DNA from: an uncultured Bacteroides sp.
Lineage (GTDB): Bacteria; Bacteroidota; Bacteroidia; Bacteroidales; Bacteroidaceae
Length of the DNA: 47,952 nucleotides
NCBI GenBank assembly: GCA_949288715.1
Contig: CASELH010000014.1
Location: 1-47,952, forward strand
Reading direction: 5' to 3'
This document shows, piece by piece, positions 9,945 to 26,773 of this stretch. Both the position numbers and the translations under genes were made by a program. Each line of letters opens with the position of its first letter. Position 1 is the first letter of the stretch. The notes beneath the pieces are model-generated. The model was not told the origin of the DNA and did not search any database. It saw only the letters and a program-made list of their open reading frames with translations.

Positions 9945-11223
9945 GCCAGGGTTCGGGGTTGAGCTTCTGCTTCTCCTTGCGCAGCTGGAAGTGAAGCACG
10001 GTGCGCCCGCCGTCGGCAGGATTGGAGAAGACGGTGCCCAAGGGCTGGCGGGTGGTGACGGCATCGCCCGTCTTGACGGACGCGGATGACAGGTTGCAGT
10101 AGACGGAGATATAGGCGCCATGGCGCACCAGGATGTTGAACAACCCGTTGAGCTGGAACACGGCGGCCACCTTGCCGCCAAAAATGGCACGCGCCTGCGC
10201 GCCGGGCTGGCCTTGGATGTCGATGCCCTTGTTGTCGAGCTTGACGTTGCGCAGCCCCTCCACGGTGTATTGCCCGAAGTGGCTGGTGATGAGGTAGGGC
10301 CCGGTGATGGGCACGGGCAGCTTGCCCCGGTTTTCGGCAAAGGTGCCTGAGAGGGCTCGGTCAGCCTTGTCCAGGGTATAGGCCTCCACGGGGGCGGGCT
10401 TTTCGGCTTTTCCGGCGGGGGCGGCAGAGGCAGCCTGCTTTTTGCGGGCAGCGGCTTCGCGACGGGCCTCTTCTTCGGCACGCTTGCGGGCCTTCTCTAT
10501 CTCCTCGGCAATGAGGCGGTCTATGCGGTCATTCAGCTGGTTGGCTTCGCGGCGCTTCTTGGCCAGTTCGTTTTGCAGGCTGCGCTGCTGGCGGCGCAGG
10601 TTGTTCACCAGGTTGCGCTGCTGCTTTTCCTGGGCTTCGAGCTTGGCCTTCTCACCCTCGCGCTCCTGCAACAGCTTTGCCTTGGCATCCCTTACTTGCT
10701 GCAGTTCCTCCCGCTTGTCGGCCAGCAGTTGCTGCTGCTTCAGTATCTCCTCGCCTTGCAGGCGCTGGTAGGTGGCATATTCGCGCACGTAGCGCAGGCG
10801 GCGGTAGGTTTGCGCCAGGGTTTTGGCCGAGAAGATGAACAGCAGTTTCTCTTCGATGGACATGTTCTTATAGAGGTAGCACACGGAGGCGGCATACTGC
10901 TCGCGCCTGGCTTGCAGGTCTTGTTGCAGCTTGGCGGTCTGGCGCTGCAGGGAGGCCAGTTCGCGGTCTATCGCCTCCATGTCGCCGTTGATGGTGAGGA
11001 TGTAGCGACGGCGCTCCTCTATCTGTCCGGTCAGGGCAGCAAGGCCCGAGAGCTGGCTGCCTACGTTCTTCTTTGTGGTCTGCAACAGGGTTTCCGACTC
11101 AGCAATCTGTTTCTGCAAAGTGCTGCGCTTGCTTTCCAACTCTTTTATCAGCCGGTTGGACTGCGCGGCGGCGGGCAGCAGCAGGCAAAGGCAGCCTATG
11201 CAGGCACAAAGCAGACGTTTCAT
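9934..11223 (-). CDS. EnvC-like amidase activator: coiled coil plus degenerate LytM (M23) domain
   Basis: A 429-residue exported protein. A signal peptide (ending PAAAQ) is followed by long coiled-coil segments rich in Lys, Glu, Gln and Arg (about residues 25-265), then a LytM domain at the C-terminus. Active M23 enzymes need an HxxxD and an HxH set. Here the first His is Asn (NKGIDI), the YxHL position reads YCNL, and HLHF reads VLHF. Most zinc ligands are lost, as in E. coli EnvC, which activates cell-wall amidases instead of cutting. The likely role is regulating septal peptidoglycan hydrolysis. The start overlaps the DUF4292 stop by 4 bp (ATGA), giving translational coupling. Confidence 0.85.
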   Translation of the reverse strand: MKRLLCACIGCLCLLLPAAAQSNRLIKELESKRSTLQKQIAESETLLQTTKKNVGSQLSGLAALTGQIEERRRYILTINGDMEAIDRELASLQRQTAKLQQDLQARREQYAASVCYLYKNMSIEEKLLFIFSAKTLAQTYRRLRYVREYATYQRLQGEEILKQQQLLADKREELQQVRDAKAKLLQEREGEKAKLEAQEKQQRNLVNNLRRQQRSLQNELAKKRREANQLNDRIDRLIAEEIEKARKRAEEEARREAAARKKQAASAAPAGKAEKPAPVEAYTLDKADRALSGTFAENRGKLPVPITGPYLITSHFGQYTVEGLRNVKLDNKGIDIQGQPGAQARAIFGGKVAAVFQLNGLFNILVRHGAYISVYCNLSSASVKTGDAVTTRQPLGTVFSNPADGGRTVLHFQLRKEKQKLNPEPWLSR

Positions 11224-11810
11224 AGGCTCATCAGCATTTCCAGCAATTCGTAGAGTTGCACCTGCTCGTACTTGGCGGAGAGGCGGGTGGGCGTAAGGGT
11301 CAGGGGCTTGTCGGAAAAGTCGGAGAAGGTGAGCTTGGCTTTCTCCAGGGAGTGGATGCCCAAGTCTTTGGCCGACAGCACGGCCGTGCCTTCCTTGGCT
11401 GCCTTGTAGAGCAGTTTCTCCAGGCGGGCATAGGTGGCCTTGCGGGGCAGCAGGTCTTTCAGTTCCTCGCGGGTGACGCGGACGTAGCGCTTGCCCATGC
11501 GGTCTACCAGCAGGGCCTCGTCGGGGGTGACTTCCACGCGCGCCACTTCCGTGCGCAGGATGGGCATCAGGAAGGAGAGCTGCATGCGCTCGCCCTTCAC
11601 CAGCTTCAAGGTGCCGTTTACAGTGAGCACGGCGTTCTTGCTAGGCACCGTGAGCTGCACCTTGGCGGAGAGGCAGCCGGTGTCTTCCGAAATGGGGCCG
11701 GCGGCATGCTTGGCCGTCTTGCACCCGGCCAGACACACGGCCATGAGCAGCACGAGGGAGAGGAGGCGGAGGGACTTCCGCACGGCGGTATTATTCTGTA
11801 GTGGTTTCAT
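11220..11810 (-). CDS. DUF4292 family lipoprotein
   Basis: A 196-residue protein with a lipoprotein signal ending LAGC-K. It matches the Bacteroidetes DUF4292 family in length and in the DEALLVDRMGKRYVRVTREE stretch. The fold may resemble LolA/LolB-like beta sheets that bind lipids, but this is family-level inference. It sits between the TPR gene (20-bp overlap) and the EnvC-like gene (4-bp overlap), so all three are made together. The constant neighbourhood suggests an envelope assembly role; none is proven from sequence. Confidence 0.8.
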   Translation of the reverse strand: MKPLQNNTAVRKSLRLLSLVLLMAVCLAGCKTAKHAAGPISEDTGCLSAKVQLTVPSKNAVLTVNGTLKLVKGERMQLSFLMPILRTEVARVEVTPDEALLVDRMGKRYVRVTREELKDLLPRKATYARLEKLLYKAAKEGTAVLSAKDLGIHSLEKAKLTFSDFSDKPLTLTPTRLSAKYEQVQLYELLEMLMSL

Positions 11811-13638
11811 CGGGGATGTATTTCTTTTGGGCTATTTTCTCTTTCAGCGTGGGCGAGGTGCTGCCCATCTCCAAGGCCTGCTGCCAGAACTTCAGGGCAC
11901 CCTCCACGTCGCCGGTCATGTAGTAAATGTCGCCGCAGTGCTCCACGACTTCGCTGCTTTTCTCTCCGTCGGCCAGCATGGCATTGTCTATGTAGATGCG
12001 GGCCTCGGCGTAGTTGCCCTTCTCGAAGAGAATCCAGGCATAGGTGTCGAGGTAGGTGGCGTTGTTGGGCTCGGCCTTGATGGTCTTGTAGCTCATTTCC
12101 TCGGCCTTGTCCAGGTCGCGGCGTTCCAGCGAGAGGTAGTAGGCGTAGTTGTTCAGCGTGGCAATGTTGGAGGGGTTGTACACCAGGGCGGAGTCGTAGG
12201 CGGCATAGGCTTCCTGCATCTGCATCTTTTCGTGGTAAGCATCGCCTATGATAGAGTAGAAGTCGGAGATGACTTCCTTTTTGCTGTCTTTCGTCACCTG
12301 CTTCAGGGCACGCCGGCAGATGGAGAGAGCATCGTCGGTGCGCTCGTCGTGGTTGTAGGCTATGGCGAGGTAGAAGTAATACTCCAGCATGTTGGGAGTG
12401 GCCTCCACGCCTGCCTCGCACAGGCGGATGATTTCAGGATAGTTTTCGCGGCGGATGGCTTCGCCCAGCAGCGTCATGCGGGCGGCGTTGTTGGTGGGGT
12501 CGATGTCGAGCACCTGCCACAACACGGGTATGGATGCCTGGTTCATGCCTTTGGAGAGAAGGTATTGGGCGTAGAGCATGGGCAACTGCACGTCGTCTTG
12601 CCCCTGCTCCATGATGCGGTCGAAGAGGCGGATGATGGCGGTGCTGTCTCCCCCCTCGCGTTCATTCTGCACAATGAGCTGGCGCATGACGTTCACCTTG
12701 GTGCCCGATGCCACCTTCTTGTTCACCAGCAGGGCATCGAGCTGCTTGCGGTAAAGTTCCTGTTGGCCCGTCTCCTCGTAGTAGGAAGCCATGGAGTACA
12801 TGGCCATGGCGTTGTCGGGCTCTTGGGCAAGCACTTCCTGGTAGAGGGCATGGGCTTTGTCGGCCTTGCCGTTCTGCAGGTAGACGTCGCCCAGCATGAC
12901 CTTGTAGTTCTGTTCGGCCGGATACTCCTCCACCAGGCTTTCCATCTCACGGAAGGCGCTTTTCACGTCGTCCATCTGCAGGTAGATGCGGAATTTCTCC
13001 ATGGTGAGCTGCTCGCTCTTGCCCATCTTCTGCTCCAGGCGGTTCAGCACGTCTATCACTTGGGTGTAGTTTTCCTTCCGGTTATACAGGTCGAGCAGGC
13101 TGTAAAGCGGGTCGAGCTTGCCGGGGAAGCGGACGGCCATGTCTTCGAGCAAAGTGATGGCTTTGTCCTGCTCGTTCTGCTGCATGTAGAGGTTGGCCAG
13201 TCCCTGGCAGTACCAGTAGTTGTCGGGGGCATTGGCCACGGCCTGCTCCAAAGCGCGCACGCCCAGGGCGGGCTGCTTGAGGTAGAGGTAGTATTGCGCC
13301 AGCTCGTACTGGGCGGAAGCCGCCGCAGGGTTGATGTCCAGGCAGTGCTGCAGCAGCTCGAACGCCTCGTCGTACTTGCCTTGCAGCTTCCGGCGAACGG
13401 CTTCGAGGTAGAAGTAGTCGTACTTGCGCTGCGCCTCGGGCGACAGGGCCGGGCACACCGGCGGGTGCACGGCTTGCGGATTCTTCTTCTTGGTCTTCTT
13501 CTTTTTCTGCTGCAGGCCGGCCATGCGCGCCAAAGTTGTCCCGGCCGATGCCGGGGCCGCATCCGCCGAGGCCTGCCCTTGCACGGGGCACAACAGGCTG
13601 AACAGCAGCAACAGCCACAATATTCGTCGTTTCAACAT
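11791..13638 (-). CDS. Exported tetratricopeptide-repeat protein
   Basis: A 615-residue protein with a signal peptide (MLKRRILWLLLLFSLLCPVQG), a Lys-rich linker (KKKKTKKKN) and then tandem TPR units from about residue 65 to near the C-terminus. TPR hallmarks seen include the A-x-x-Y pattern (ASAQYELAQYYLYL, NATYLDTYAWILFEKGNYAEA). TPR arrays are protein-binding scaffolds. The place in the operon, between dut and an outer-envelope lipoprotein plus amidase activator, suggests work in the periplasm. The 3' end overlaps DUF4292 by 20 bp. The partner is unknown. Confidence 0.88.
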   Translation of the reverse strand: MLKRRILWLLLLFSLLCPVQGQASADAAPASAGTTLARMAGLQQKKKKTKKKNPQAVHPPVCPALSPEAQRKYDYFYLEAVRRKLQGKYDEAFELLQHCLDINPAAASAQYELAQYYLYLKQPALGVRALEQAVANAPDNYWYCQGLANLYMQQNEQDKAITLLEDMAVRFPGKLDPLYSLLDLYNRKENYTQVIDVLNRLEQKMGKSEQLTMEKFRIYLQMDDVKSAFREMESLVEEYPAEQNYKVMLGDVYLQNGKADKAHALYQEVLAQEPDNAMAMYSMASYYEETGQQELYRKQLDALLVNKKVASGTKVNVMRQLIVQNEREGGDSTAIIRLFDRIMEQGQDDVQLPMLYAQYLLSKGMNQASIPVLWQVLDIDPTNNAARMTLLGEAIRRENYPEIIRLCEAGVEATPNMLEYYFYLAIAYNHDERTDDALSICRRALKQVTKDSKKEVISDFYSIIGDAYHEKMQMQEAYAAYDSALVYNPSNIATLNNYAYYLSLERRDLDKAEEMSYKTIKAEPNNATYLDTYAWILFEKGNYAEARIYIDNAMLADGEKSSEVVEHCGDIYYMTGDVEGALKFWQQALEMGSTSPTLKEKIAQKKYIPDETTTE

Positions 13639-14122: not shown

Positions 14123-14173
14123 GATTTTAAACATTTATCGGGCGAAAGTACGGATTTTGACGCAAAATAATCA

Positions 14174-14181
14174 TACATTTG
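14174..14181 (+). promoter_or_regulatory. -7 box (TACATTTG) for dgt
   Basis: TACATTTG matches the -7 consensus and lies 40 bp before dgt. A TTTG at 14156-14159 is only 14 bp away, too close for the usual spacing. A weaker leftward match (TACTTTCG, 14150-14143) could serve dut. Confidence 0.6.
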
Positions 14182-14221
14182 CAGTTAAATTATAACAAAG
14201 CCCCTTTCAACGCATACAAAA

Positions 14222-15565
14222 ATGGACTGGAGTACCCTGATATCGGCCAAACGCTTCGGCCTGGAAGAGTTTCACGAAGCACGGCGCGAAAACCGCTCGG
14301 AGTTTCAGCGCGACTACGACCGCCTCATCTTCTCGGCCCCCTTCCGCAGGCTGCAGAACAAGACGCAGGTGTTCCCCCTGCCCGGCAGCATCTTCGTGCA
14401 CAACCGGCTGACGCACAGTCTGGAGGTGTCGTGCGTGGGCCGCTCGCTGGGCAACAACATTGCCAAGGCGCTGCTGGAGCGCGACGCGGAGCTGCGGCAC
14501 ACCTGCGTGTCGGAGGTAGGCTCCATCGTCTCTGCCGCCTGCCTGGCCCACGACCTGGGCAACCCTCCCTTCGGGCACTCGGGCGAAAGGGCCATCTCCA
14601 CCTTCTTTTCTGAAGGGAAGGGACTGGAATTGCGCGCCCCGCAACCCGACGGCACGCGGCTGACCGACGCGCAATGGCAGGACCTCACCCACTTCGAGGG
14701 CAACGCCAATGCCTTCCGCCTGCTCACCCACCAGTTTGAGGGGAGGCGCAAGGGGGGCTTCGTGCTGACCTATTCCACGCTGGCCAGCATCGTGAAGTAT
14801 CCCTACTCGTCGAGCCTGGCGGGGGAAAAGGGCAAGTTCGGCTTCTTCACCAGCGAGGAAAGCAGTTTCCGCCGTATAGCCGACGAACTGGGCATGGTGC
14901 GCCTCAACGACGCCCCGCTGAAGTACGCCCGCCACCCGTTGGTGTACCTCGTGGAGGCGGCGGACGACATCTGCTACCAGCTTATGGACATAGAAGACGC
15001 CTACAAGCTGAAGATTCTGACCCCGCAGGAGACGCGCGACCTGCTGATGGGCTACTTTGCCGACGAGCGGAAGGCCCACATAGAACGCACGCTGCACATT
15101 GTGGACGATGCCAACGAGCAGGTGGCCTACCTGCGCTCGTCGGTCATCGGGCTGCTCACCGGCGAGTGCACCCGCGTCTTTCTGGAACACGAGGCCGACA
15201 TACTAGCCGGCACCTTCGAGGGCAGCCTCATCAAGCATATCGCCCCCACGCCCGCCCAGGCCTACCGCCGCTGCGCCGAGGTGGCCGGGCAGAAGATATA
15301 CCGCTCGCGCGACGTGCTGGACATTGAGCTGGCGGGCTTCCGCATCATCAGCACCCTGCTCGAGCTGATGACCGACGCCGTGCGCTCGCCTTGGAAAACC
15401 TACTCGCGGCTGCTCATCGACCGCGTGTCCAGCCAATACAACATGCAGGCGCCCACGCTCTACGAAAGGGTGCAGGCCGTGCTCGACTATGTGTCGGGCA
15501 TGACCGATGTCTTTGCTCTCGACCTCTACCGCAAGATAAACGGCAACAGCCTGCCGGCCGTGTAA
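14222..15565 (+). CDS. dgt: Deoxyguanosinetriphosphate triphosphohydrolase (HD domain)
   Basis: A 447-residue HD-superfamily dNTPase that converts dGTP (and often other dNTPs) to the deoxynucleoside and triphosphate. Seen: FRRLQNKTQVFPL, the first metal His in LTHSLEV (His65), the HD pair His110-Asp111 in AHDLGNPPFGHSGE, and a late EAADDICYQLMDIEDA that supplies the last Asp. Length and layout fit long Dgt proteins. It faces away from dut. The caspase gene starts 27 bp downstream with no terminator, so read-through into that operon is possible. Confidence 0.93.
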   Translation: MDWSTLISAKRFGLEEFHEARRENRSEFQRDYDRLIFSAPFRRLQNKTQVFPLPGSIFVHNRLTHSLEVSCVGRSLGNNIAKALLERDAELRHTCVSEVGSIVSAACLAHDLGNPPFGHSGERAISTFFSEGKGLELRAPQPDGTRLTDAQWQDLTHFEGNANAFRLLTHQFEGRRKGGFVLTYSTLASIVKYPYSSSLAGEKGKFGFFTSEESSFRRIADELGMVRLNDAPLKYARHPLVYLVEAADDICYQLMDIEDAYKLKILTPQETRDLLMGYFADERKAHIERTLHIVDDANEQVAYLRSSVIGLLTGECTRVFLEHEADILAGTFEGSLIKHIAPTPAQAYRRCAEVAGQKIYRSRDVLDIELAGFRIISTLLELMTDAVRSPWKTYSRLLIDRVSSQYNMQAPTLYERVQAVLDYVSGMTDVFALDLYRKINGNSLPAV

Positions 15566-15591
15566 AGTCTCCCGCAAAGTAAACAAACGCC

Positions 15592-18492
15592 ATGAAGATA
15601 AAAACACTGATATTCGCCCTCCTGCTGACAGGATGCTACCTGCCAAGCTTGGCGCAAACGTCCTCCGCCACCAACGACGAGCCGGTGACCACGATGGTGC
15701 TGTCGGGCCATTACATCGGCACCATCGACGTCAACGCTAACCAGCAATATGCGCTCACCACCGACGGAACCACCATTGCCTTGTGGGACTTGGGAAAACG
15801 ACGTGTTGTCAGGCAAATCACCATGCCCAACAAAGACGTACGCTTCCACCCGCTAAACGCATCGTGGATAATGGTCAGGCCCGTTAACGACATCGGGCTC
15901 TCGGGTGAAACCGTCTATTACACCTACAACTTGTTTACCGGCAAGCGGATGGGCGTAAAGAAAGGAAAAGACGTGCCCGCCAAGAACAAGCGGATGGAAG
16001 ACTTCGTGCTGGAGCGGGAAGCCGGGCTAGTGACCATCCGGTCGAGGAAAACCGGCGAGGTGGTCGGCACCCTAAACGGCTGCTACGGACTGACTGGGGC
16101 GCGACTGGCCTTGGACAACCACGATAGTCTGCTGGTGCAAAGCGGATTGCGCCCACTGGTGTGGGACTTAAAAAACGCCAGGTTCGTGGGCACTCTTCCT
16201 TACATCGATTTCCTGAAGCAGGACGAAGGGCTTTACTTCAGAGATAACTACACCGTACCCATACCCAAGAAGCGCACCTCCTCTGCCCTAAGAGATGATT
16301 TGTATTTCACTTCAAAGAATAATTACCAATATGGCTATCGCAGTTTCTACGAGGCTTACTTCACCGACAACGGCGACGTGCTGCTGGGCGGGTACAATGA
16401 CAACATCACCCGCTGGAGCACGGACGGGCGGTTGCTGGAAACCATCCCAACGGACGGAGCGCCCGTGTTTTCTTTCACGGACAACGGGCAGTACCGCGTG
16501 GCCGCCACCTACCAAGGCCTGAACATGGGCAAGATGCCCGACGGAAAATTGAAGGATTGCAAGGGATTCAACAAAGGCTCCGACTATAAGCTACTATATC
16601 AGGTATCTCCCATATTTCGCAAGAAATACTTTGTGACTGGCGGGGACGACTTAGACCTGGTGATGGGTAAAATGGGAGACCCAGACTTCCGAAAGAAGTT
16701 GCTCTTTATCGACACATTCCCCATGTGCTACGACATTGACACCCCCGAACAGACTATCCTGTTGAGTGGCGAATTTGCGCGCCTGCAAGAAGTACCCATC
16801 GACAACCCCAAACAAAACTTTAAGTATGACACCTCCCCCTTCAAAAGTTCCCGGGCAGACTGCTGTCTTTACTTGGATGAAGAATGGATAGCGGCAGGAT
16901 GCAACGACGGGGTCGTGGGATTCTGGAAACGCGGCACTAAGCAGGCGCAGCAAGTAGCCTATGCGCACAGGGGCGGCGTGACAGACTTGAAGCTGGCTCG
17001 CAACCGCCAATGGATGCTTAGCGCCGACTGGAATGGCATGATACGCATCTGGGATGCCCGGACACACGCGCCCATCATGGATCTTTTTCACTTGGGCGTG
17101 GGGAACGACTATGTATTCGTCACGCCGGACAATTATTACAAGGCATCGAAAGGCGCGTATGACATGATTCACTTTGCCAAGGGCATGCAGGTACTCAGCT
17201 TCGAGCAGTTCGACCTAGTATACAACCGCCCCGACATCGTGCTGCAACGCTTGGGGCAACCGCAAGAGAAAACCCGGGCCTACTACCTGGCCTGGAAAAA
17301 ACGTTTGCGGCGCATGGGGTATGACGAAGACAGGCTCTCCGGCGAGATGCATGCGCCAGAACTGACGGTGAGCAATAGGAAAAGCCTGCCCAAATCCACC
17401 GCGCAGAGGGAGGTCGCGTTAATCGTCCGGGCAACCGACAGCAAGTATAAACTGGAACGCTTGTTTGTTTCGCTCAACGGCGTCCCACTCCATGGCAAGC
17501 GCGGGGCAAACATCGCCGGGCGACAAACGTCGGTTTACGAAGACACACTCCGGGTGCAACTGTGCCAAGGCAACAACCGCATCGACATCTCGTGCATGAA
17601 CGACAAGGGGGTGGAGTCTTACCGCGAGCAGGTTGACATTTATTGCGAAGCGCCTGCCGCACAGCCTAAGCTCTTTGTGGCCGCCATCGGCGTGTCCCGC
17701 TATGCCCAAAACGGATTCAACCTGAACTATGCCGCGAAAGATGCCACCGACTTCGCCACCCTGATGGAACAGTCGGGCAAGGACAGGTTTTCCGCAGTGG
17801 AGTGCATAGTGCTTGCCGACGAGGCATTCTCGCAAGCGTCGTTGCCACGCCTCAAGGAGTTTTTCGGACAGGCAGGGCGCGACGACGTGGTGATGCTTTT
17901 TTACGCCGGACACGGCGTGCTGAGCCGCGACATGGATTACTTTCTGGGCACTTACGCCATGGACTTCGACAGGCCGCAAGCAGAGGGCGTGGATTACGAA
18001 GCTTTCGAGTCTTGCTTGGAGCACACCGAAAGCATCCATCGGTTTTGTTTTGTAGACGCTTGCCATTCAGGCGAGCTGGACAAGGAGGATTACCAGGCAG
18101 ACAATGTGGTGACGAAACCTGCCGGGAAACTGGTGTTCCGCAATGCAGGCTACGGGCTACGAGAAGTAAAGGGGCAAGGCGTGAAGCAAGTGCAAGCCCT
18201 ATTCAACGAGTTGTTTGTAGATGTGCGTTGGGGCATGGGTGCCACCGTATTGTCCAGTGCAGGCGGCATGGAGGTGGCTTTGGAGGGTAACGACTGGAAG
18301 AACGGCTTGTTCACCTGGTGCTTGAAGAAAGGCATCGCGGAGCGTGCCGCCGACCTGGACAAAGACGGGAAAATCAACACCAGCGAACTGACCGCTTACG
18401 TAAGCCAAGAAGTCAACCGCCTGTCGGACGGTCTACAAACGCCAAGCGTCAGGCAAGACAACCGGTTGCAAGACTTTGTGATTGTAGAATAA
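15592..18492 (+). CDS. Exported WD40-repeat caspase-family (C14) protease
   Basis: A 966-residue protein. An export signal opens it; cleavage could follow LAQ, or the LTGC at residues 12-15 could act as a lipobox. Residues of about 35-560 hold WD40-like blades, the clearest being TIALWDLGKRR, PLVWDLKNAR, NITRWSTDGR, VVGFWKRGTK and MIRIWDARTH. A caspase domain follows from about residue 690, with the catalytic dyad His774 (YAGHGV) and Cys824 (VDACHSGE). The domain ends with DLDKDGKINTSE, which resembles a calcium-binding loop. Family members cleave proteins; the target here is unknown. It starts a four-gene unit with SEL1, CHASE2 and small secreted proteins. Confidence 0.85.
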   Translation: MKIKTLIFALLLTGCYLPSLAQTSSATNDEPVTTMVLSGHYIGTIDVNANQQYALTTDGTTIALWDLGKRRVVRQITMPNKDVRFHPLNASWIMVRPVNDIGLSGETVYYTYNLFTGKRMGVKKGKDVPAKNKRMEDFVLEREAGLVTIRSRKTGEVVGTLNGCYGLTGARLALDNHDSLLVQSGLRPLVWDLKNARFVGTLPYIDFLKQDEGLYFRDNYTVPIPKKRTSSALRDDLYFTSKNNYQYGYRSFYEAYFTDNGDVLLGGYNDNITRWSTDGRLLETIPTDGAPVFSFTDNGQYRVAATYQGLNMGKMPDGKLKDCKGFNKGSDYKLLYQVSPIFRKKYFVTGGDDLDLVMGKMGDPDFRKKLLFIDTFPMCYDIDTPEQTILLSGEFARLQEVPIDNPKQNFKYDTSPFKSSRADCCLYLDEEWIAAGCNDGVVGFWKRGTKQAQQVAYAHRGGVTDLKLARNRQWMLSADWNGMIRIWDARTHAPIMDLFHLGVGNDYVFVTPDNYYKASKGAYDMIHFAKGMQVLSFEQFDLVYNRPDIVLQRLGQPQEKTRAYYLAWKKRLRRMGYDEDRLSGEMHAPELTVSNRKSLPKSTAQREVALIVRATDSKYKLERLFVSLNGVPLHGKRGANIAGRQTSVYEDTLRVQLCQGNNRIDISCMNDKGVESYREQVDIYCEAPAAQPKLFVAAIGVSRYAQNGFNLNYAAKDATDFATLMEQSGKDRFSAVECIVLADEAFSQASLPRLKEFFGQAGRDDVVMLFYAGHGVLSRDMDYFLGTYAMDFDRPQAEGVDYEAFESCLEHTESIHRFCFVDACHSGELDKEDYQADNVVTKPAGKLVFRNAGYGLREVKGQGVKQVQALFNELFVDVRWGMGATVLSSAGGMEVALEGNDWKNGLFTWCLKKGIAERAADLDKDGKINTSELTAYVSQEVNRLSDGLQTPSVRQDNRLQDFVIVE

Positions 18493-18511
18493 GTAATAAT
18501 GCGAATCAGGT

Positions 18512-20239
18512 ATGAAACGAAAACTATGCATCGGGATGATAGTAGCCTGCATGGCGAGCACCGCCTTCGTGAAAGCCCAAACAGCCGACGAATTGTGGCA
18601 TGACAACCTGCTGCAATACTTGGAATATGTACAAAAAGGCAAAACGGACAAGACACTCAAACCAATGGCCGACTGCGCGCGCCATGCGAAGAAAGCAAAG
18701 GTCATAGATAACAACATGAAGGTGCTAACCTGGTATTTGTATTTAGCAGAACTGATAAAGCAAGCCCCTCAAAGCAGAGACATCGGTGAATACAGCGCAT
18801 TGATATGCAATTATGGTTCCCAACTGGAAGAAAAGCCTTTGTCCTATGGGCTGGACATGATTACGGCCAATGCCTACCTGCTCCGAACGGCCTATGTGAA
18901 GCCGGAATGGAAACCCGTCATGCTCGTCAACGCATACAGTCTGCTGAACCGTCTGGAAGAAGAAAAAGTGGCATCGGTGGTCGAAGAAGACTATGAAGGC
19001 TTCTACGGCTTGGCGCAACTCTCAGTGTCCAACGAAGAACGGCTCAACATGATGAACTATGTGCTCCAACAGATGGAAAGCCTTTCCGGGAAAGACTGGT
19101 ATGACGCAGCCCAAAACGCCCACGACCATTATAAGTTTGACGGGTACAGGCAAGCCGCCCTGACCTGTGTGTCCATGAGCGAGAAAAAAGAGTTTGCAGA
19201 TGCCTGGGCACTGCATGGTTATATGCATGAAATAGGCCGCGTGGTTGAAAAGGATAAGACGCAGGCTGCCCATTACTACAAGGCAGCTGCCGACAAAGGC
19301 AGCGTGTGGGGCAAGGTGGAATATGCCGCCTTGCTGATAGGGGGAAAGATTGTGAAGCAAAACTATGCCCAGGCATTGCAACTGTTGACATCGGTGGAAG
19401 ACAAGCCAGACTTCCTACGATACGGGGGAGGCTACTACCTGGGCCGGCTTTACGAAAACGGCTGGGCAGTGGAAACAGACCGGGAAAAAGCCATGATGCT
19501 CTACACGGATAGTTTTGAAAAGTGTATCTGGAAGGGAACAAAAAAACTGTCTTACGAAGGCTCCAAAAGGCTGGAGAACAAATTGGTAGAAGAGGCCATC
19601 GATCAAGAAATGGCAGGAGTGGACACCAAGGGAATGAGTGCGGAAGAGCTGACTGCCATTGCCCAACGTTATGAAACGGTAGGCGCCCAAAGAAAAGCTC
19701 TCGACTATCTACTACAGGCCGTGGACAAAGGCAGTTCATATAGTGCCTGCCGCTTGGGGATGAAATGGTTTGACAGTGCCAACAAGAAGAACCAGGTGTT
19801 GCTGCAAGGCGCGTTCCGGCTGTTTCAAAAGGGTGCGGAAGGCAACTATGCCCCCTGCAAATACAACGTGGCCGTGATGTACCTCTACGGTTATGGCACT
19901 TCGCCCAACCACGACATGGCACTGGACTACTACAACCGATACATGGAACAGATAGCAGCCGAAGGCTACAACGAATACGAAAAAGATGATTACATAGGCA
20001 CCATTACGGGCATGTTATACAAAGCCGAGGCAACCAAACAAGGCGTACCCTTAAAGAAAGCCATCGACGAGTTCAACCAACCAGCGGAGTTGTACCAATG
20101 GGCCAGGTTCCGCGAGCGCGACAGCCGCCCCGAAATCTCCATCTACTTCTACACACGTGCCATGCAGAAAGGACATCCCAAAGCTGCGGAGCGGTTGGAA
20201 GCATTCAAGAAGCGGCTACAACAAGAACCGGAAAAATAA
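18512..20239 (+). CDS. Exported SEL1-like repeat protein
   Basis: A 575-residue protein with a signal peptide (MKRKLCIGMIVACMASTAF, cleavage near KAQ). It carries SEL1-type helical repeats: AADKGSVWGKVEYAALLIGG, YLGRLYENGWAVETDREKAM, and CKYNVAVMYLYGYGTS followed by MALDYYNRYM. SEL1 repeats are protein-interaction modules, often in stress or quality-control assemblies. The start lies 19 bp after the caspase stop and the CHASE2 gene begins 12 bp after its end, so the genes are surely co-transcribed. It may scaffold or adapt the caspase; that is inference from context. Confidence 0.82.
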   Translation: MKRKLCIGMIVACMASTAFVKAQTADELWHDNLLQYLEYVQKGKTDKTLKPMADCARHAKKAKVIDNNMKVLTWYLYLAELIKQAPQSRDIGEYSALICNYGSQLEEKPLSYGLDMITANAYLLRTAYVKPEWKPVMLVNAYSLLNRLEEEKVASVVEEDYEGFYGLAQLSVSNEERLNMMNYVLQQMESLSGKDWYDAAQNAHDHYKFDGYRQAALTCVSMSEKKEFADAWALHGYMHEIGRVVEKDKTQAAHYYKAAADKGSVWGKVEYAALLIGGKIVKQNYAQALQLLTSVEDKPDFLRYGGGYYLGRLYENGWAVETDREKAMMLYTDSFEKCIWKGTKKLSYEGSKRLENKLVEEAIDQEMAGVDTKGMSAEELTAIAQRYETVGAQRKALDYLLQAVDKGSSYSACRLGMKWFDSANKKNQVLLQGAFRLFQKGAEGNYAPCKYNVAVMYLYGYGTSPNHDMALDYYNRYMEQIAAEGYNEYEKDDYIGTITGMLYKAEATKQGVPLKKAIDEFNQPAELYQWARFRERDSRPEISIYFYTRAMQKGHPKAAERLEAFKKRLQQEPEK

Positions 20240-20251
20240 CGCACTGCTTCC

Positions 20252-21463
20252 ATGAAATATGAGTTTTCCAACAGGTTTCAAGGACTGCGAAGGATAAAGC
20301 ACATCCTTTTCGCACTGATACACGCGACATGGGTGTTGCTGCTTTGTTACCTGCTGGGGAACAAAGCCTATTCGCTGGGCGATGAAGAACAATTCATTCA
20401 ACATCTTCACTTTGCCAAGGAGAGCATTTGCCCTTCGGAGCCTGTGATGCCCGTAAACTTGCTGCCCGTAAATGTGGCCTATGATAAGCAAATGGCTGCA
20501 TGGGCAGACGAATATGGCTTGCCTGCAGGTGAGCTGGCCATCACCGATCGACAAAAACTGTTGCAGTTCCTGCAACTGGCCAAGGAAACAGACAGCTACA
20601 AATACATCATGCTGGATGTGTTTTTTGAGGAAGGCATCCAAACGCCCGTAGACTCCGCCCTTTTTGCCACTATTGCCTCCATGGACCGCCTGGTGCTCCC
20701 TTGCCATGAAGGAGCCAGAATGGAAGACAGCGTTCTGCTGCCCAAATCAGCCTACGCCGACTATCGCACTTCGGTGAACGAGGGCAATTTTGTAAAGTAC
20801 CAATACCAAGTAGACGGCAAGCCCTCCATGGCCTGGAAGATGTATGCCGATTACACGGGAGCAACCTATTCTCGCCGGGGGCCTTTCCACTTTTGCAACG
20901 GCCGCTTGTGTCACCGCTGCCTATTCTTAAACTTTACAGTCAACCCGGGTGAAAACGCTTATACCTCCGAAGGCGAAAAGCAATACTACAACTTAGGAGC
21001 CGACCTGCTGGACGAAGCAGCCCACATAGATTATGCCACGTTCCTGAAGGACAAAATAATCTTAGTGGGCGACCTATCCGAAAACGACATCCACGACATG
21101 TATGCAGGTTCCATGGCGGGAGCGTATATTCATTACAATGCTTTCCTAGCCCTGATGGATGGCAGACAATATGTAAACGGCTGGTCGATGTTGGCCTTGT
21201 TCACCGTCTACTTCCTAATCACCTTGTTTTTGACGAAACAGGTGTCTTTCTTCGACTGCATTCCTTTGCTGAACAGGGTAAAGACACGCACCTGGCGTTT
21301 TATCTTTTCGTGGTGCGGCTTTTCGGCGGTGCTCTCGGTGGTGTGCGCCGCCTTCTATTTCATTGAAGGGAACATTTATGACATATTGATGATTTCTGCT
21401 TATTTCTCGGTGTTCAACACCGTATTGGAGTTTTACCGTACACTAAAAAAACAAACATCATGA
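20252..21463 (+). CDS. CHASE2-domain membrane protein lacking an output domain
   Basis: A 403-residue protein. One membrane helix lies near residues 18-42 (ILFALIHATWVLLLCYLL). A CHASE2-like extracytoplasmic domain follows: IMLDVFFEEGIQTPVD, the closing signature LKDKIILVGDLSENDIHDMY and AGAYIHYNAFLALMDGRQYV. Three further hydrophobic segments end the protein. CHASE2 usually senses extracytoplasmic signals for a kinase, cyclase or similar C-terminal domain. None is present here, so the signal must pass to another protein or through the membrane helices. A Cys cluster (FCNGRLCHRC) lies in the sensor. The stop overlaps the next ATG by 4 bp (ATGA). Confidence 0.78.
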   Translation: MKYEFSNRFQGLRRIKHILFALIHATWVLLLCYLLGNKAYSLGDEEQFIQHLHFAKESICPSEPVMPVNLLPVNVAYDKQMAAWADEYGLPAGELAITDRQKLLQFLQLAKETDSYKYIMLDVFFEEGIQTPVDSALFATIASMDRLVLPCHEGARMEDSVLLPKSAYADYRTSVNEGNFVKYQYQVDGKPSMAWKMYADYTGATYSRRGPFHFCNGRLCHRCLFLNFTVNPGENAYTSEGEKQYYNLGADLLDEAAHIDYATFLKDKIILVGDLSENDIHDMYAGSMAGAYIHYNAFLALMDGRQYVNGWSMLALFTVYFLITLFLTKQVSFFDCIPLLNRVKTRTWRFIFSWCGFSAVLSVVCAAFYFIEGNIYDILMISAYFSVFNTVLEFYRTLKKQTS

Positions 21464-22089
21464 AAAGAACCGTTTTCTTTGTTTTGGCTCTGCTATGCAG
21501 CTGGCTTTTGGCAACTATGCACGCCCAAGAGCAGTATAAGATTCTTTTCCTCAACACGTCGCCTATCGAGATTGGAGGGAAGCAATGCCAGGTGAACGAC
21601 TGTTTCGACATCTCGGACAAGATTCATTGGAAAAACGATGGGCAAGTAATGAAGGTGATGAACCTGCGCACGCAGCGGCAGAGCGTGGTGGCCGCCCGTG
21701 GATTCAAAAAAAAGAAGCACAAAACACTGTCTTCCTACCTCAGCCAAAACAAGCAGTTGTCCACACGCGACGGCTCTCCGTTGCTGCTTCCACAATTAAA
21801 AGATTACCTGGCCGACACATTCTACCTGATAGACAGCATAGAGGTCAAGGCGTTGGCACCGATGGACGACCGGCATTTCTTTTATGCGGACTATCGCTAT
21901 AAAGACGAAATCATCCATAAACGGCTGCCTGCTACAGAGAATGGCTTTTTGATAGACTACTCCTTATTCACCATTGACGGCAAGCCTATCACGCCGTTTG
22001 AAACGGACTTGTCGATATATTATCTGGACAACGAGCAGGAAAAAGCCATGCTTATCACAACCCATATGCACGTGGTGCCCGTTAAATGA
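21460..22089 (+). CDS. Small secreted protein of the caspase-CHASE2 unit, unknown function
   Basis: A 209-residue protein with a signal peptide (MKRTVFFVLALLCSWLLA, cleavage near MHAQ). The mature part opens with YKILFLNTSPIEIGGKQCQV, has a strongly basic patch GFKKKKHKTLSSY and a middle stretch YFADYR-like in character (residues HFFYADYRYKDE). I do not recognise a family. Translational overlap with the CHASE2 gene makes it part of the same unit. It may be a substrate, inhibitor or ligand of the other three; no choice can be made from sequence. Confidence 0.75.
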   Translation: MKRTVFFVLALLCSWLLATMHAQEQYKILFLNTSPIEIGGKQCQVNDCFDISDKIHWKNDGQVMKVMNLRTQRQSVVAARGFKKKKHKTLSSYLSQNKQLSTRDGSPLLLPQLKDYLADTFYLIDSIEVKALAPMDDRHFFYADYRYKDEIIHKRLPATENGFLIDYSLFTIDGKPITPFETDLSIYYLDNEQEKAMLITTHMHVVPVK

Positions 22090-22134
22090 CCTTCTTTAGT
22101 ATTTGAAAATGTAATGCCATTCGCAATTTATGCC

Positions 22135-22142
22135 TAACTTTG
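22135..22142 (+). promoter_or_regulatory. -7 box (TAACTTTG) for the SLC13 transporter
   Basis: TAACTTTG fits the -7 consensus and is 36 bp before the ATG at 22178. It separates the transporter transcript from the caspase unit. No -33 TTTG is seen at the right distance. Confidence 0.6.
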
Positions 22143-22177
22143 CGGCCTGAAGAACCCCAAAACCAACCCGTAGACTT

Positions 22178-26163: not shown

Positions 26164-26502
26164 TCACATCATCATCGCAATCTGCTTTTCTACTGCCGAC
26201 TTGATAAAAGCATTGATAGAAATGCCTGCCTGCTTGGCAAGAACAGCTATGCGGCTATGCGTTTCCGGCGAAATCCGAATGTTCAGAGAGCCGGAATAGC
26301 TTTTATGAGGCTCTATCCCTTCCTCTTTGCAATATTCCAAATAGTCATCTACGGCTTCGTGGAAAGCATTTGTCAGCTCCTTTACACTTTCACCCTCAAA
26401 ATTCACCAACCCGTTTATACCTTCAACTTTTCCAAAAAAAACATTATCTTTTTCACTAAAAGATACCGAACCGATATACCCTTTGTAACTCAATGTATTC
26501 AT
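26164..26502 (-). CDS. hicB: HicB-family antitoxin
   Basis: A 112-residue antitoxin. The N-terminal half is a degenerate RNase-H-like HicB domain (YKGYIGSVSFSEKDNVFFGK, ESVKELTNAFHEAVDDYLEY). The C-terminal half is a ribbon-helix-helix segment (SLNIRISPETHSRIAVLAKQ) for DNA binding. HicB neutralises HicA and represses its own promoter. The gene follows hicA by 13 bp and is AT-rich compared with the dcw genes. The 25882-26163 gap beyond it holds the gls promoter and a 28-codon decayed coding trace. Confidence 0.88.
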   Translation of the reverse strand: MNTLSYKGYIGSVSFSEKDNVFFGKVEGINGLVNFEGESVKELTNAFHEAVDDYLEYCKEEGIEPHKSYSGSLNIRISPETHSRIAVLAKQAGISINAFIKSAVEKQIAMMM

Positions 26503-26515
26503 AAACTATTTCCTC

Positions 26516-26773
26516 CTATTTAATAAATCCTGCTTCTGTCAAGTCATCTAAAACCTGCTTCATGGCATATCCTTTTACGATATTCCCTGGATGTGGCTTA
26601 TGCAGCATAATGGGTCGTTTGTCTCCATTGCGATAAATAATCCTTGACCCCGAAGTCTTCCCTTTGTTCGATTTCACGTATCCGAAAAAAGACAAAAGCC
26701 TCTCCATTTCATCAAATGTAAAGTCATTAGGCTGCTTTTTAAACCGCGCCACCAGTTTTTCTTTCGTACCCAT
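26516..26773 (-). CDS. hicA: HicA-family mRNA interferase toxin
   Basis: An 85-residue toxin. The family is an RNA-binding dsRBD-like fold that cleaves mRNA. Seen: FDEMERLLSFFGYVKSNKGK, GSRIIYRN, and MLHKPHPGN with the likely catalytic His58, then the closing helix KGYAMKQVLDDLTEAGFIK. Both members of the pair look complete, so the module is probably functional. The toxin precedes the antitoxin, the usual hicAB order. The promoter and operator lie directly upstream. Confidence 0.9.
   Translation of the reverse strand: MGTKEKLVARFKKQPNDFTFDEMERLLSFFGYVKSNKGKTSGSRIIYRNGDKRPIMLHKPHPGNIVKGYAMKQVLDDLTEAGFIK

Follow-up and report, generated by a model that had tools for sequence, protein, structure and literature searches.

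In a 47,952-nucleotide stretch of DNA from an uncultured Bacteroides sp. (contig CASELH010000014.1 of assembly GCA_949288715.1; the whole stretch is called the window below), four forward-strand open reading frames (ORFs) at positions 15592-22089, here named A to D, encode a caspase with a WD40 region, a protein with Sel1 repeats, a CHASE2 membrane protein and a small protein of unnamed family. What is conserved in this system is not the set A to D as listed but a core made up of C, D and a cysteine hydrolase that can be swapped. We consider it fairly probable that C, a CHASE2 protein with no recognised output domain, acts with D to gate an exported cysteine hydrolase in the periplasm, which in the window is A with its Sel1 partner B.

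An initial annotation had taken the four genes to be one system whose members should also be neighbours in other genomes. We assembled 57 distinct C loci, window included; a scan of named genomes contributed 25 C loci, of which seven were already in the set and had their duplicate copies dropped, and L065, which has C at E (expectation value) 2e-4, was removed since the locus-seeded hidden Markov model (HMM) found no C there. A caspase, CHAT or transglutaminase-like protein, together called effectors here, is encoded in the C operon (same strand, gaps <200 bp, up to four genes away) in 48 of the 57 loci, the classes being represented in 25, 14 and 15 loci respectively, and within 10 kb on either strand in 49. 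The expectation of conserved neighbours was thus borne out for C and an effector gene. The four genes do form one unit in that they are absent as a whole block from a sister genome and C lies near caspase or CHAT genes far above expectation, but the caspase and the Sel1 protein proved not to be fixed members: effectors fall into three classes, of which caspases are one, and B turned up in 4/57 loci, always beside a full-length A relative.

The association with effectors was measured against each genome's own content. Whole-genome searches of 39 C-bearing genomes gave 116 C14 and 46 CHAT matches, and 25 of the 40 C loci have a caspase or CHAT gene no more than 10 kb away, against 0.89 expected from the match count and size of each genome (about 28 times expectation; P about 1e-34). 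The transglutaminase-like subfamily adds 7 of the remaining 15 loci, bringing those with an effector to 32/40. Assignment of this third class rests on a Cys and a His that are invariant in eight aligned members; one small member exceeds the cut-off of the transglutaminase-like family DUF553 by 1.4 bits. Among the C-bearing genomes, 15 of the 23 hits to the subfamily are near C and 8 are elsewhere, one of these in the window's own genome.

A quickly built tree of the 57 C proteins, with 49 loci labelled, shows 9 changes among the three effector classes. Counted with five labels there are 14 changes, compared with a mean of 33.1 after shuffling, so that the labels are far more clustered than shuffled ones, a clustering to which near-copies in the tree add. 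The labels of the mixed loci L097, L111 and L100 and of L089 were our choice, branch support is by the Shimodaira-Hasegawa-like approximate likelihood ratio test (SH-aLRT) only, and three rows have long branches. The clustered labels together with the nine class changes suggest that effectors have been both inherited with C and exchanged, the exact number of exchanges being unsure.

The CHASE2 match of C scores 36.2 bits against a Pfam cut-off of 26.3, and 14 of 24 C proteins, including that of the window, reach E 0.001 for Pfam CHASE2. The predicted structure of C (predicted local distance difference test score 87.7) has an alpha/beta domain between end helices, with one helix before the domain (residues 2-36) and three after it (310-328, 346-372 and 379-402), which is the one-before, three-after arrangement published for CHASE2 proteins (PMC3501461, PMC5192318); hydropathy gives three segments, versus four long helices in the model. 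CHASE2 receptors usually carry a cytoplasmic output domain on the same chain. In the 24 C proteins scanned, CHASE2 is the sole domain that Pfam finds. After the last hydropathy segment, C proteins continue for a median of 33 residues, and 56 of the 57 stop within 59; the remaining one, a frame at a contig end, has a tail of 151 residues.

D reaches the cut-off of no Pfam, NCBIfam or PHROG family, and FecR is absent from the Pfam hits of 21 D proteins at E 1. It adjoins C in 41/57 distinct loci, with a 4- or 1-base overlap in 25. Across 399 genomes of the family D was found in 23, 22 of these places being beside C and one a weak match elsewhere; seen from C, 22 of 28 C-bearing family genomes have D beside it and 6/28 gave no D at the same settings. 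In five loci the caspase itself starts with the D domain, and two of these proteins run on into BspA-type leucine-rich repeats. Six distant C neighbours aligned together (five more besides L057, which was counted above) match the D profile with probability 98 and E 2e-14, and the match takes in the signal peptide. Transglutaminase-like proteins in L083 (9114-10952) and L087 (6805-8634) open with a D-like beta segment that gives a weak profile match, and one in L095 (7268-9238) does so as judged by eye, as if a D-like module were fused to a transglutaminase-like effector too.

A passes the Pfam C14 cut-off (PF00656; 43.9 bits, cut-off 21.4), and the caspase dyad His774/Cys824 named for it in the initial annotation is confirmed by alignment: across 29 caspase ORFs, that of the window among them, 28 have H in the His column and all 29 have C in the Cys column. 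In the WD40 part of A a single stretch passes Pfam, and other propeller models stay below their cut-offs. An EF-hand-like loop in the C-terminal part of the caspase domain was found by regular expression in 4/29 caspase ORFs (window, L088, L077, L014) and is absent by the same expression from the other 25, that of L089 included; Pfam EF-hand models on A are below cut-off. Relatives of B adjoin relatives of A in L088, L089 and L077. The first of these, in Phocaeicola plebeius DSM 17135, keeps the A-B-C-D gene order of the window, with identities of 65, 60, 59 and 65% for A, B, C and D. In L089 A and B point away from C-D, and in L077 the order is C-D-A-B, so that A-B and C-D behave as two pairs.

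Table 1. Features of the caspase-CHASE2 cassette and their positions in the window.
Feature	Position	Strand	Basis
Gene A: signal peptide, WD40 region, C14 caspase domain (966 aa)	15592..18492	+	Pfam, hydropathy
WD40 repeat of A, residues 457-488	16960..17055	+	PF00400, 42.3 bits
Caspase domain of A, residues 699-960	17686..18471	+	PF00656, E 3e-11
Catalytic His774 codon of A	17911..17913	+	Alignment of caspase ORFs
Catalytic Cys824 codon of A	18061..18063	+	Alignment of caspase ORFs
EF-hand-like calcium loop of A, residues 921-932	18352..18387	+	Regular-expression match
Gene B: Sel1-repeat protein with signal peptide, partner of A (575 aa)	18512..20239	+	PF08238, E 1e-14
Gene C: CHASE2 membrane protein, output domain not recognised (403 aa)	20252..21463	+	PF05226
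CHASE2 match in C, residues 100-323	20549..21220	+	Pfam PF05226, E 6e-9
Gene D: signal-peptide protein, unnamed family, paired with C (209 aa)	21460..22089	+	
N-terminal beta domain of D	21532..21768	+	HMM and model; caspase-fused in five relatives
C-terminal Ig-like beta sandwich of D (predicted)	21784..22086	+	
Block absent from sister genome G797, holding A-D and no other gene	15565..22159	.	blastn

The layout of the cassette agrees with what had been annotated: the ORF coordinates give four co-directional genes with intergenic gaps of 19 and 12 bp followed by a 4-bp ATGA overlap, and hydropathy finds an export or membrane signal on all four proteins, namely one N-terminal hydrophobic segment each in A, B and D in addition to the segments of C. 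At the same place where the window has 6,595 bp, sister genome G797 has 45 bp, and blastn aligns the two genomes with 97.6% identity over window positions 14132-15564 and 94.9% from 22160 on. The flanking proteins are a dGTPase upstream (100% identical in G797), whose stop codon is 26 bp ahead of A in the window, and a CitMHS transporter downstream (97%); the two genes are 65 bp apart in G797; at E 1e-60 the dGTPase is present in 57 and a CitMHS-type transporter in 27 of 60 genus genomes. G+C (guanine plus cytosine) content is 0.48-0.55 in A-D versus 0.63 and 0.60 in the flanking genes, and at third positions 0.61-0.71 versus 0.87 and 0.81. Profile searches found C in 28/399 family genomes and 12/393 order genomes (window genome included in each), a patchy spread in which both counts are lower bounds, as at most four candidates were scored per genome; a single-sequence search found it in 8/151 family genomes, again counting that of the window. 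A gain in the window, rather than a loss in G797, is favoured by the low-G+C composition and by how rarely C occurs in the genus, and the A-D cassette was likely acquired horizontally.

Predicted location points outside the cytoplasm for the effectors and for D. By a loose rule that permits a later start codon, N-terminal export signals are present on 25/28 caspases, 13/16 CHAT proteins, 23/23 transglutaminase-like proteins and 39/41 D proteins, against a background of 152/315 other long ORFs in the same loci. In the mechanism we propose, A, B and D would cross the inner membrane by means of their signal peptides, and the CHASE2 domain of C would bind a signal in the envelope. Because C has nothing recognisable with which to signal inside, the signal would be routed through D, along the outer face of the inner membrane, to the protease; with no recognised inside output and with the partners predicted to be outside, a path on the periplasmic face is the simplest. 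A, perhaps requiring calcium through its EF-hand-like loop, would then cleave envelope proteins. In the initial annotation Sel1 and WD40 would serve as scaffolds, a role that is predicted, as are the sensing, the proteolysis and the periplasmic site. C-D would be the conserved switch, and the effector would for that reason be interchangeable.

Several results weigh against a periplasmic hydrolase gated by C and D. No effector of the three classes was found in 8 of the 40 loci searched genome-wide, nor in the operon in 9/57; of these nine, L057, L063, L079 and L093 have C near a contig end, L089 has a caspase that is divergently oriented and so falls outside the operon count, and L056, L058, L059 and L112 have none of the three classes. 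Of six larger transglutaminase-like proteins scanned, four match Transglut_core below cut-off (E 0.002-0.2) and two match nothing. Catalysis appears to be lost in some partners, namely in one caspase with His changed to Tyr and in the products of six transglutaminase-like genes (226-243 aa) that lack the Cys. D was not found by the locus-seeded HMM in 16/57 loci, and a second set of six distant C neighbours matches its profile weakly, with probability 44. Ten of 24 C proteins fail E 0.001 for Pfam CHASE2, and a six-frame search of the window's own genome with the Pfam CHASE2 model missed C, which the protein-level scan finds. Support by SH-aLRT is strong on 25 of 54 inner branches of the C tree, the HMMs were seeded from these same loci, and the export background may include ORFs that are not genes.

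One alternative is that the proteases are ordinary digestive or housekeeping enzymes that are exported and lie by chance near CHASE2 genes in variable regions. Bacteroidota export many hydrolases, and nearly half of the other long ORFs look exported by the same loose rule; but chance would have to produce the roughly 28-fold excess of caspase and CHAT genes near C, D-caspase fusions directly after C, and a block that is present or absent as a whole, and we regard this explanation as very improbable. C might instead serve in the inner membrane to anchor or mature the exported protease, assembling or holding it together with D, while its CHASE2 domain senses nothing. The lack of a recognised output domain is what such a role predicts, the direct fusion of D to the caspase in five loci is expected of a holder, and neither a ligand nor a clear solved structural relative of the C model could be named. 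CHASE2 is, however, described as a sensor domain (PMC5192318, PMC3501461, PMC7475262), and the 17 alignment columns that are invariant among the 24 C proteins are more than a mere anchor would have to retain; we judge the anchor unlikely.

A third alternative has the same parts as the gated hydrolase and adds a specific role, namely a conflict system of the envelope, for defence or self-killing, in which C-D would sense damage or invasion and the protease would kill or arrest the cell. The patchy spread, the clean presence or absence of the block, its foreign composition and the repeated change of effector all suit such a system, and a caspase model of a defence library (PADLOC, 2023) matches residues 698-867 of A with 38.6 bits. 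B, C and D, however, have no match in that library. Ten proteins were scanned, one flanking the cassette in the window and nine picked by hand in eight related loci: five have no match, four match either weakly or by way of widespread enzyme families (helicases, for example), and one, in L014, strongly matches the candidate family PDC-S01. Moreover, C has no match at E 1e-5 in 50,697 phage and 72,556 plasmid records. A conflict role is one we advance tentatively, and the less specific gating of an exported hydrolase by C and D is the reading we prefer.

Published systems share parts of this arrangement; they are cited here from excerpts of the papers concerned. Trichodesmium erythraeum has a caspase-CHASE2 fusion whose caspase is predicted to be cytoplasmic (PMC3501461, PMC2853523), and a model of membrane-bound orthocaspases places WD40, ANF or CHASE2 receptors at the surface and the p20 part in the cytosol (PMC7475262), and that review detected no CHASE2 among its own 98 sequences. 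Another review names CHASE2 among caspase partners (PMC5756287), and a cyanobacterial cluster contains WD40 and CHASE2 genes (PMC5587647). The fusion and the orthocaspase model likewise combine C14 and CHASE2, the latter preceded by one helix and followed by three, and share the idea of a CHASE2-gated caspase. In Trichodesmium, however, this is one polypeptide. The cassette encodes its caspase separately, with a signal peptide, and has D and B in addition; because of that separate caspase, predicted to be exported, the output would be on the opposite side of the membrane. In a survey of prokaryotic caspases (PMC3501461) WD40 ranks first among the domains (10.9% of sequences) and Sel1 ranks third (6.0%), both of them carried on the caspase chain; the cassette instead has Sel1 on a partner gene and has the CHASE2-D pair as well.

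Another related system is a Burkholderia operon of a FecR-LysM protein and a CHASE2 histidine kinase (PMC5192318), in which a gene for an exported protein likewise stands beside a gene for a CHASE2 membrane protein. In that operon a cytoplasmic kinase is attached to CHASE2 and there is a gene for a response regulator, whereas C has no recognised output domain, the Pfam scan of A-D finds neither a histidine kinase nor a response regulator, and D, unlike the FecR partner, has no Pfam FecR match. The EACC1-like conflict systems (PMC8195603) likewise have a component with swappable C-terminal domains, CHASE2 among them; they differ from the cassette in that A is below the cut-off for the EACC1-associated caspase (NF047832; 72.6 bits, cut-off 140) and that export is predicted for A, B and D. 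Searches of the open-access literature, a coverage that leaves out most subscription journals and preprints, gave no description of output-less CHASE2 proteins with exported caspases. What appears to be new here is the predicted extracytoplasmic output, the published caspase-CHASE2 and FecR-CHASE2 cases that we found having, in the excerpts, cytoplasmic output.

Further observations concern the effector families. In six loci (L091, L095, L096, L097, L098 and L111) a transglutaminase-like gene of 226-243 aa lies directly before C with GDSED replacing CDCED, and a larger copy that keeps the Cys is also present; these Cys-less proteins are possibly pseudoenzyme regulators. L080 encodes a Sel1-caspase-TonB_C protein (10651-12276) with Tyr at the position of the catalytic His; C is flanked on its opposite side by another caspase, which has both His and Cys. 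The window's own genome has a further transglutaminase-like protein of the C-adjoining subfamily near the end of another contig (G000:C61; L113:8217-9725), where by eye no CHASE2-like ORF is present among the listed ORFs of >=150 aa up to the contig end at which the stretch stops, and a cluster of three CHAT genes on a contig other than that of C (G000:C4:71954-80154, within L114). In genome G720 a caspase and two transglutaminase-like genes are clustered with no C detected (C6:67192-74801); the interval between these genes may hold a more remote CHASE2 gene. Further along the window, two small adjacent genes on the reverse strand (26164-26773) resemble what we take to be a HicB/HicA toxin-antitoxin pair.

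As a speculative extension, the cassette could belong to a widespread family of envelope death or conflict switches, each with a receptor that has nothing inside, a dedicated partner, and an interchangeable executioner (caspase, CHAT or transglutaminase-like) outside the cytoplasm. If this is true, a decision of the caspase type is made in the periplasm. The cassette would offer a direct route to studying how a signal travels on the periplasmic face without an inner output domain, what CHASE2 senses and what an exported caspase cuts; the presence of the same four genes in a named species, Phocaeicola plebeius DSM 17135, makes testing possible.

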